Source of the DNA: an uncultured Draconibacterium sp.
Lineage (GTDB): Bacteria > Bacteroidota > Bacteroidia > Bacteroidales > Prolixibacteraceae
DNA length: 64,000 bases
Direction: 5' to 3'
Assembly: GCF_963675585.1 (NCBI RefSeq)
Contig: NZ_OY776414.1
Span: forward strand, 289,001 to 353,000
The notes beneath the pieces were generated by a model, which was given only the letters and a program-made list of their open reading frames with translations, did no database searches and was not told the DNA's origin. Position numbers and translations under genes: made by a program. Position 1 is the stretch's first letter, and every line of letters starts with the position of its first letter. Positions 8,957 through 14,349 of this stretch are shown in pieces.

Positions 8957-10060
8957 ATGGAAAATTTTATTGTATCAGCACGAAAATACAGACCCGATTC
9001 GTTTGAGACGGTTGTTGCCCAGGCATCGATTACAGGAACTTTAAAAAATGCCATTAAAAGCAGCCAGCTTGCTCATGCGTATTTGTTTTGCGGGCCCCGC
9101 GGAGTTGGGAAAACTACTTGTGCCCGTATTTTTGCCAAAACAATAAACTGTACCAATCTTACTGCTGAAACCGAAGCGTGTAATACCTGCGAATCATGCA
9201 CATCGTTTAACACCAACCGTTCGTTTAACATTCACGAACTGGATGCGGCTTCAAATAATTCGGTTGACGATATTCGAAACTTAACGGATCAGGTGCGCGT
9301 TCCCCCGCAAATGGGAAAATACAGCGTGTATATTATCGATGAGGTTCACATGTTATCGTCGCAGGCTTTTAATGCTTTCCTAAAAACACTGGAAGAGCCG
9401 CCAAAGCATGCCATCTTTATTTTGGCAACAACCGAAAAACACAAAATTATTCCAACCATTTTGTCGCGCTGTCAAATTTTCGATTTTAACCGAATTGGAA
9501 TTTCCGACATTTCGGAACACCTGGAATATGTAGCCAAAAGCGAAGGTGTTGAGGTAGAAAGTGAAGGTTTAAATGTAATAGCGCAAAAAGCCGATGGTGC
9601 CATGCGTGATGCACTTTCTATTTTTGATCAGATTGTAAGCTTTTCGGGAAAGAAAATCACATATCAGAATGTAATTGGTAATCTGAATGTGTTGGATTAC
9701 GATTACTATTTCCGTTTGGTTGACGAATTCTTAAAGAACAATGTAACAGAAGTGTTGCTGATTTTTAATGAAATTTTGAGCCATGGTTTCGACGGACATC
9801 ATTTTATTACAGGCTTAAGCAGTCATTTCCGCGATATTTTGGTTTGTAAAGATACCGTAACTATTCAGTTGCTGGAAGTAGGTGGCGATATTAAAGAACG
9901 ATACAAAACGCAGGCATTGGCTGCTGACAGTGCATTTTTGCTCGATGCCTTACAAATAAGCAACGATTGCGACATAAAATACAAAACAAGTCAAAATAAA
10001 CGCCTGCTCATTGAACTGGCTTTGATTCGGATAGCGCAGCTAACCTTAAAAAAAAAATAG
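8957..10060 (+). CDS. dnaX: DNA polymerase III gamma/tau subunit, zero-frame (short) product
   Basis: 367 residues. Clamp-loader ATPase: Walker A GPRGVGKTT (near residue 46), the four-cysteine zinc module (CTNLTAETEACNTCESC), Walker B IIDEVHML, and the SRC arginine-finger motif in TILSRCQIFDF. Domains I-III are complete. The frame then ends at a TAG directly after a run of ten As (10048-10057). A -1 shift there joins it to the frame that follows and gives a tau-length protein of about 578 residues. The zero-frame product therefore resembles gamma. A homopolymer sequencing error could also explain the split. Confidence 0.93.
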   Translation: MENFIVSARKYRPDSFETVVAQASITGTLKNAIKSSQLAHAYLFCGPRGVGKTTCARIFAKTINCTNLTAETEACNTCESCTSFNTNRSFNIHELDAASNNSVDDIRNLTDQVRVPPQMGKYSVYIIDEVHMLSSQAFNAFLKTLEEPPKHAIFILATTEKHKIIPTILSRCQIFDFNRIGISDISEHLEYVAKSEGVEVESEGLNVIAQKADGAMRDALSIFDQIVSFSGKKITYQNVIGNLNVLDYDYYFRLVDEFLKNNVTEVLLIFNEILSHGFDGHHFITGLSSHFRDILVCKDTVTIQLLEVGGDIKERYKTQALAADSAFLLDALQISNDCDIKYKTSQNKRLLIELALIRIAQLTLKKK

Positions 10061-10104
10061 CTGAAGGTGACGATGACATTCTCGAACCTATTTTTTCGGG
10101 AATA
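10048..10104 (+). promoter_or_regulatory. dnaX frameshift/slippage site: A10 run plus downstream hairpin
   Basis: Ten consecutive As at 10048-10057 are followed immediately by the zero-frame TAG stop. Slipping back one base (or transcripts with one extra A) opens the -1 frame to 10695. About 20 bases further on, ATTCTCGA (10078-10085) can pair with TCGGGAAT (10096-10103) around a 10-base loop, with one G-U pair. This hairpin is rather far from the slip site for a classical stimulator, so RNA polymerase slippage on the A-run is at least as likely. Confidence 0.7.
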
Positions 10105-10695
10105 GAAATAGCCGATGAACCAAGTTCTCCGGTGGTTTCAAAACCGGTAACTCAAGAAAAATCAAAAGAACAAGTAGTTCCTAAAACTCCAAAAATAGAA
10201 CCAGTGGCAAGGCCAAAACGTATTGTGCGTAAGGTTGGAACCCCATCGGTTAAAATGGCTTTAAAAGGAGAATTTAAAGGCGACGAACAGCAACTGTCGG
10301 CAAAAGAACAACATGAAATGTTTTCGAAAGCCGATGAAAATGAGCCTTTTACTGAAGAGCAGTTAATTGAAAAGTGGAAGGAGTTTTTGCCACGCTTGGA
10401 TGATCGTCCGAGTTTGAAAGCCACATTGGGAACTTTTCCAAAACTGGAAGAGGACTTTTCACTTACTTTGGAAATTGACAGCCGTATTCAGGATGAATTG
10501 TTGGCGAATATAAAACCTGAACTGGTTTCGTGGTTGCGAAAGGAATTGCGCAATTCGAATATTAATTTGAAAACGGTAGTCACTGATGTAGTACACGAAA
10601 AAGTAGCGTATTCAGATATTGAAAGATACACCGAAATGGCCAATAAAAATCCAAATTTGGCGCTACTCAAACGTACATTAAACCTCGATTTTTAA
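10057..10695 (+). CDS. dnaX: DNA polymerase III tau C-terminal part, -1 frame
   Basis: About 212 codons continuous in the -1 frame from the A10 run; a GTG at 10132 is the only early start-like codon. It opens with an acidic linker (AEGDDDILEP), then a Pro/Lys-rich flexible segment, then a folded region (about 10350-10695) with FTEEQLIEKWKEFLPRL and a C-terminal KNPNLALLKRTLNLDF. This end is typical of Bacteroidota tau proteins, where it would hold the polymerase and helicase contacts. I read it as the tau-specific part of dnaX, not as a separate gene. Confidence 0.8.
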   Translation: MAEGDDDILEPIFSGIEIADEPSSPVVSKPVTQEKSKEQVVPKTPKIEPVARPKRIVRKVGTPSVKMALKGEFKGDEQQLSAKEQHEMFSKADENEPFTEEQLIEKWKEFLPRLDDRPSLKATLGTFPKLEEDFSLTLEIDSRIQDELLANIKPELVSWLRKELRNSNINLKTVVTDVVHEKVAYSDIERYTEMANKNPNLALLKRTLNLDF

Positions 10696-13624: not shown

Positions 13625-14257
13625 TTACTCCCAGTTACCTGCATTGTTTGTTGTCTCTGTTAACGATCCCACACGTAATCCTGGGTATTTATCGTTCGTT
13701 CTTCTAGAGTCGTTAAGATTAATAATCAACTGCTCGTCAAGACCTCTAAGAATTACATTGTTGTGCGCTTTTGCCTCAAAAACAGGAACTTTAATTCCCG
13801 AACCGGTAGTAATTATTGTTTGTCCTAAATGAAATTCAGTAGGTTCACCCGGAACCGGAACATAACGTAAACTGTTTGCATCATAACTACCACCGAACAA
13901 AGCATCAATAACACTTTCACGCACGGTGTCACGAATAATCAATCCCATTTCAATTGCTTTCTTTTCAGAAATTTTAGCTTCAATCATACTATCAGTAAGC
14001 TCACCAATTGCTTTTACGTTACGAACAGAGTCAGTACTCACAAAATGAATAAGTGTATCCCAGCTGCCTGTAAATTGTCCGTGAATATCTTTGTAAGCCA
14101 GTTGTGCTTTTCTAATATCTTTCAATTTAGCAACGGTAGCTTCGTATCGAACATCTTTTGCCTTGTCAAACTCAATAGGACGTTGAATACTTTGATAGAT
14201 AAAGTAAGTTAGAACAACTGCTGCGATGAATAGTAAAATTTGAATTACGGTTCTCAT
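13625..14257 (-). CDS. Membrane-anchored hypothetical protein
   Basis: 210 residues. One N-terminal membrane helix (VIQILLFIAAVVLTYFIYQS), then a periplasmic-type region with a predicted helix (FDKAKDVRYEATVAKLKDIRKAQLAY) followed by beta-rich sequence. The layout, a membrane anchor followed by a helix with KAQLAYKDIHGQFTGSWDTL, is loosely like a pilin or pseudopilin, but no prepilin cleavage site is visible. First gene of the unit with DUF3822 and rsmD (gaps of 5 and 3 bases). Function unknown. Confidence 0.7.
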   Translation of the reverse strand: MRTVIQILLFIAAVVLTYFIYQSIQRPIEFDKAKDVRYEATVAKLKDIRKAQLAYKDIHGQFTGSWDTLIHFVSTDSVRNVKAIGELTDSMIEAKISEKKAIEMGLIIRDTVRESVIDALFGGSYDANSLRYVPVPGEPTEFHLGQTIITTGSGIKVPVFEAKAHNNVILRGLDEQLIINLNDSRRTNDKYPGLRVGSLTETTNNAGNWE

Positions 14258-14349
14258 TTTTATTTATTTATAAGTTTTTTTTTCGTTTGCCTGCAAATTT
14301 AAAAAAAAAAATAAATTAGCTTCCTTTACAGAAAGTTATTTTAGCCTGT

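Follow-up and report, generated by a model that had tools for sequence, protein, structure and literature searches.

The dnaX locus

The analysed DNA (the window) is a stretch of 64,000 nt from the genome of an uncultured Draconibacterium sp., which was assembled to 6.03 Mb in four contigs. The dnaX gene of the window begins with an ATG at position 8957, and its zero frame closes at the boundary between gamma and tau, where a TAG codon lies directly 3' of a run of ten As (A10); the tau C-terminus is encoded in the adjacent frame (Table 1). This arrangement had been proposed in an earlier reading of the sequence without database searches (the sequence-only reading), and both the run and the stop were confirmed at the positions listed. 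From the run, the -1 frame stays open for 212 further codons, and the length of tau with one extra A is 579 residues. The third frame closes within about two codons of the run.

Table 1. Features of the dnaX locus, in positions of the window.
Feature	Positions	Strand	Basis
dnaX zero frame, 367-residue gamma-like clamp-loader ATPase (AAA+, lid, domain III)	8957-10060	+	Pfam, NCBIfam, solved relatives
A10 slippery run, TTA AAA AAA AAA TAG	10048-10057	+	sequence
TAG, zero-frame stop of gamma	10058-10060	+	sequence
Tau-specific C-terminal part in the -1 frame, I-A-E-G to the stop at 10693-10695	10057-10695	+	NCBIfam; purifying selection in the -1 frame
Weak downstream hairpin, probably incidental	10078-10103	+	folding
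Short inverted repeat CAGCTA...TAGCTG flanking the A-run	10037-10063	+	common in the genus, weaker in the family, background elsewhere

The zero-frame protein matches positions 1-365 of the NCBIfam model PRK14971.1 (DnaX gamma/tau, 614 positions), and the -1-frame part matches positions 426-612 of the same model, in agreement with the tau C-terminus that the sequence-only reading had assigned to this frame. Clamp-loader ATPase and lid domains were identified by Pfam in the zero-frame protein, together with domain III (PF12169, 9689-10042), which ends just 5' of the A10 run and is the single match to this domain in the genome. No Pfam domain was found above cut-off in the tau-specific part. The solved gamma/tau clamp-loader chains that match the zero-frame protein include 1jr3 and 3glh, which we take to be from Escherichia coli. 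It follows from the sequence, as the same reading had stated, that the zero frame specifies gamma and slippage would give tau, the reverse of the E. coli arrangement.

The sequence AAAAAAAAAATAG occurs only once in the genome, in dnaX. The genome contains 26 distinct A/T runs of at least ten nucleotides, and two long frames are joined at dnaX only. An A10 run was also observed in coaBC (L345:853-2064, minus strand; C4 of the genome, near 2354229), at residue 185 of 404, between the CoaC (9-182) and CoaB (191-373) domains, with stops two and three codons further on in the other two frames. It has the layout of a slippage site, one that would release CoaC alone. Other A10 runs lie within long, uninterrupted frames that encode a contractile injection system tape-measure protein (L346:737-2266, minus strand), a GH3 glycosidase (L331:407-2821, plus strand) and a protein with an M28 peptidase match (L425:3-1010, minus strand). 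Neighbouring T9 and A11 runs are found in the window at 14275-14311, beside the open reading frame at 13625-14257.

Conservation in the genus and family

The exact sequence ACCTTAAAAAAAAAATAG (genus motif ACCTTA10TAG) is present in 31 of the 37 genomes of the genus, own genome included. One of the 37 (G048) gave no dnaX match; an A10 run was found in 33 of the 36 that have dnaX, again with the own genome, two of them (G010 and G041) with an altered flank. The other forms are A11 with a single frame of 578-579 residues (G015 and G020) and A9 (G006). The A10 run and the CCTTA sequence beside it do not vary across an alignment of 27 genus sequences, in which only two of 17 other conserved lysine columns are AAA throughout.

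In the family survey, a dnaX match was obtained in 130 of 140 genomes. The open frame is no longer than 421 codons in 125 of these (one of them, G022, truncated where its contig ends), and four have a long single frame of 591-612 codons. The dnaX of G127 had an open frame of 550 codons in the survey, yet was split when fetched, with a zero frame of 374 codons (L289). Sunxiuqinia (L040), a member of the Prolixibacteraceae in the NCBI taxonomy, also has a split dnaX, at 80% identity. Both the A-run and the frame break are therefore conserved in the genus and the family, the outcome of a comparison across related genomes that the sequence-only reading had put forward as a check.

The tau-specific part is under purifying selection in the -1 frame: the median dN/dS is 0.12 (160 of 351 pairs of the 27 genus sequences with finite dS) and that of the gamma part is 0.036 (298 of 351 pairs), both for pairs in which synonymous sites are near saturation.

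Distribution of the A-run

A wide survey of fetched genomes yielded 287 distinct dnaX sites, with identical sites counted once and two loci dropped (L036, no match at the cut-off; L026, cut contig); the sample is uneven, the window's family having been sampled densely. A run of at least nine As lies just 3' of domain III in 254 of the 287 sites, as A9 in 18, A10 in 208, A11 in 24, A12 in two and A13 in two. Upstream in dnaX (codons 1 to about 348 of the 287 sequences, 296,772 nt), only one such run was found, and the boundary run therefore exceeds chance. Of the 254 run-bearing sites, 144 have tau in the -1 frame, 103 in the zero frame and four in the +1 frame, and three are undecided. The run starts at all three codon positions, yet it holds its length.

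An even draw of the phylum, to which the own genome was added, gave 105 Bacteroidia genomes with a match and, with G466 left out, 104 sites. The A-run is present in 97 of these (absent in seven) and is A10 in 76; tau is in the -1 frame in 46, in the zero frame in 57 and in the +1 frame in one. With the own genome included, 47 of the 104 dnaX genes are split, so that such genes can look broken to annotation.

One family outside this class (f35) was taken to represent the green sulfur bacteria because the marker gene BChl_A, presumably FMO, was detected in all four genomes tested and was absent from the window's genome (G000) and 14 control genomes. Thirty-one f35 genomes had a match and one was without the locus, which left 30 sites: the run is A10 in 28 and A9 in two, and 20 of the genes are split, at a median gene GC of 57%. 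In another family outside the window's class (f41), A9 or A10 occurs in 14 of 14 genomes, in the same place and with tau in frame in 13. Distant families of the phylum, f41 among them, were scanned in a region that begins 60 nt ahead of the end of the match and reaches 450 nt beyond it. Within this region, no run of at least nine As was found in f30, f31, f32, f34, f36, f38, f50, f53 or f55 (1-4 genomes each), only a C9 was present in f43 (one genome), and an A9 was present in f37 (one genome). The absence of the run from seven of the 104 Bacteroidia sites and from several distant families indicates that gamma is not made by way of an A-run everywhere.

Three Bacteroidaceae loci and several other Bacteroidales (L043, L053 and L072 among them) have a single tau frame without an A-run; L053 carries a G7 near the place that the A-run occupies elsewhere. 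In two metagenome-assembled Bacteroidales genomes (L117 and L093), the zero frame of dnaX ends near the boundary without any A-run, and these genes are either broken, mis-assembled or equipped with another device.

Changes of phase

A tree of the 287 gamma parts was built with FastTree; its root and inner states are uncertain, and only minimum numbers of changes are claimed from it. The tree requires at least 25 phase changes, whereas 200 shuffles of the labels required 82 on average and never fewer than 70, which indicates that the phase is inherited but flips often. The clade that contains the window's family has 91 run-bearing tips, with tau in the -1 frame in 85, the zero frame in four and the +1 frame in two, and this dominance of the -1 phase fits a single old change.

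By the names in the records, in which some titles of metagenome-assembled genomes may be wrong, split genes were found in Flavobacterium (L115) and one Aquimarina (L111), and single-frame genes in another Aquimarina (L106), three Pedobacter and three Hymenobacter. The two Aquimarina sites are both A10 and differ in phase. Seven phase changes occurred among the 30 green sulfur sites, where the runs of the pairs L391/L393 and L397/L398 differ by one A. The four +1 cases are all single tips of the tree, one of them an A9 inside an otherwise mostly A10 genus; some of the +1 cases and some of the A11 forms may be assembly errors. Judging from these comparisons, the run length is under selection, and the templated frame has flipped repeatedly.

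Stop codons in the other frames

Where tau is in the zero frame (n=103), a stop is reached within ten codons in 90% of cases in one of the other two frames and in 99% in the other, compared with 45% and 59% when the codons after the run are shuffled. In the sites with tau in the -1 frame (n=144), the corresponding values are 99-100% and 57-65%, a nearby zero-frame stop being partly true by definition in split sites. The other two frames close within nine codons in all 30 green sulfur sites. Since closing stops are in excess in both phase classes, sites of either phase look built to yield both gamma and tau.

Downstream folding, inverted repeat and tRNA-Lys

The sequence-only reading had noted a weak hairpin about 20 bases downstream of the run. 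The hairpin is present, but it is probably not a needed part of the site. A 93-nt stretch that includes it folds only mildly better than shuffled sequences (z -1.49). Standard pairs occupy 77.8% of the stem cells in the 27 genus sequences, and the hairpin is missing from the RNAalifold consensus of these sequences. Across the wider set, the mean z of downstream 60-nt folds is -0.48 for tau -1 sites, -0.63 for tau zero sites and -0.28 for the control, and 16-17% of folds have z below -2, compared with 8% in the control. The hairpin was rejected as an essential stimulator on the grounds of its incomplete pairing, its absence from the consensus and energies only slightly below control; against this rejection, two-sided changes were seen in six of the nine stem pairs, compared with 3.2 in shuffles, a value matched in only 1 of 500.

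The inverted repeat, which holds the A-run in its loop, forms a Watson-Crick stem of at least five pairs in 83% of 29 genus-like sites (11% in shuffles), in 31% of 75 sites at 68-85% identity (8% in shuffles) and in 10% of 147 sites elsewhere (8% in shuffles). It is regarded as a lead at most.

The 47 tRNA matches in the genome included one tRNA-Lys gene (UUU), and no gene was found in L424. The tRNA-Lys count was set aside as a discriminator between mechanisms, a single UUU gene being compatible with ribosomal slippage too. The in-phase run, TTA AAA AAA AAA, contains the heptamer A AAA AAA and not its AAG form.

Mechanism

The data support the programmed frameshift or transcriptional slippage put forward in the sequence-only reading, and they lean towards RNA polymerase without settling the matter. 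We consider it probable that programmed slippage of RNA polymerase at A10 gives gamma and tau whatever the templated phase. On this model, the whole of dnaX would function as a single gene, and programmed slippage would take place where domain III ends. Transcripts that carry the ten As of the template would be read into the TAG immediately and would give gamma (367 residues). The RNA-DNA hybrid of the polymerase has about the length of the run, and the enzyme would add or drop As; transcripts with eleven or eight As would bring the tau part into frame (579 or 578 residues), and those with other run lengths would reach a stop within a few codons and give gamma-like proteins. We infer RNA polymerase as the slipping agent, along with the efficiency of slippage and the manufacture of both proteins. 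The polymerase is favoured because the length of the run remains close to ten whatever its codon phase and across many different flanks, and because a run of nine As is enough in Thermus.

A ribosomal -1 frameshift, in which the single tRNA-Lys (UUU) would slip on A_AAA_AAA and the transcript would keep ten As, ranks behind RNA-polymerase slippage and is considered unlikely, though it is the strongest of the alternatives. The -1 direction of 144 of the 148 split sites, the one tRNA-Lys gene found and the slight excess of downstream folding are all consistent with it, as is the precedent of E. coli dnaX, where A_AAA_AAG, a stem and an upstream Shine-Dalgarno-like stimulator are employed (PMC3711429). 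However, a shorter run or A6G should do for the ribosome, yet ten As are kept; the runs begin in all codon phases, the hairpin does not appear to be well conserved, and there are four +1 sites, each of them, however, a single tip of the tree. One added A and a ribosomal -1 shift would lead to the same 579-residue tau, so that the proteins alone cannot separate the two mechanisms, whereas the transcripts can.

Gene fission, in which gamma and the tau C-terminal part would be separate proteins and the second would be made by re-initiation, accords with the two adjacent open frames but is very improbable. An ATG in the tau frame lies within 20 codons after the run in only nine of the 144 tau -1 sites and any ATG, GTG or TTG in 38, none of these codons occurs within 100 codons in 17, and relatives have one fused frame. 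Phase variation at the DNA level, with replication slippage at the run toggling cells between gamma-only and tau genotypes, accords with the occurrence of A9, A10 and A11 among relatives; it is similarly improbable, as the assemblies have A10 as the consensus at 208 of the 287 sites and tau, a part of the replisome, is expected to be essential. Finally, a sequencing or assembly error hiding a true A11 and a single frame, the condition under which the sequence-only reading would have failed, has next to no probability: homopolymers are prone to miscalls, and the genus and family do include the two single-frame A11 genomes and the four long single frames described above, but A10 recurs in most of the genus and in other genera of the family, the split is family-wide, and dnaX alone is split among the A/T runs of the genome.

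Comparison with known dnaX genes

A type of dnaX in which tau needs recoding was described by Antonov et al. 2013 (PMC3711429), in the available parts of which 17 genes from 12 genera are reported, nine with ten As and the set including Chloroherpeton and two Chlorobium species; transcriptional realignment was proposed for these genes. That type shares with the dnaX of the window two adjacent ORFs, a -1 frameshift at the DNA level, ten As and a recoding-dependent tau. The end of the zero frame at the boundary, the -1 transition, the poly-A tract kept in relatives and the selection on downstream coding were all found here. The family-wide fixation and the phase flips found in the present analysis were not met in those parts of the paper.

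In Thermus thermophilus, dnaX undergoes transcriptional slippage (Larsen et al. 2000, as cited in the available parts of PMC1088944 and PMC5009743). The two genes have in common an A-run at the gamma/tau boundary, near stops in both other frames and the two products, and the run of at least nine As and the near stops in the non-tau frames were observed in the window as well. The Thermus gene differs in its nine As and in that tau is the zero-frame product. E. coli dnaX is likewise one gene for gamma and tau with a poly-A slip site and a shift in the -1 direction, but its zero frame encodes tau and the shift leads to gamma, at A_AAA_AAG with stem-loop and Shine-Dalgarno-like stimulators (PMC3711429, PMC5009743). 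Shigella mxiE, an unrelated gene with a run of U, also needs transcriptional slippage for its longer product (PMC1088944).

Recoding-dependent tau at A10 and the idea of the reversal are thus already published; what is added here is the spread of the dnaX split and its frame switching. No phylum-wide tract with a flipping phase was recognised in the open-licence literature, judged mostly by title and the start of the abstract.

A further, tentative proposal, which we hold at somewhat less than even confidence, is that A10 disturbs the reading frame to such an extent that the choice of templated phase would be nearly neutral, in which case selection would act on the run length, close to that of the RNA-DNA hybrid of RNA polymerase, and on the stops in two of the three frames, and the phase would drift. 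If so, gamma/tau ratios would be similar for a zero-frame tau and for a tau made by slippage, and the run would be an old device spanning the Bacteroidia, the green sulfur bacteria and, as A9 or A10 with tau in frame, at least one further family (f41). The need for gamma was long disputed in E. coli (PMC5009743). The slippery run and the closing stops, kept in many lineages of the phylum despite the phase flips, argue that the production of both proteins is under selection; natural contrasts for a test of this are offered by Aquimarina L106/L111 and by the green sulfur pairs L391/L393 and L397/L398.
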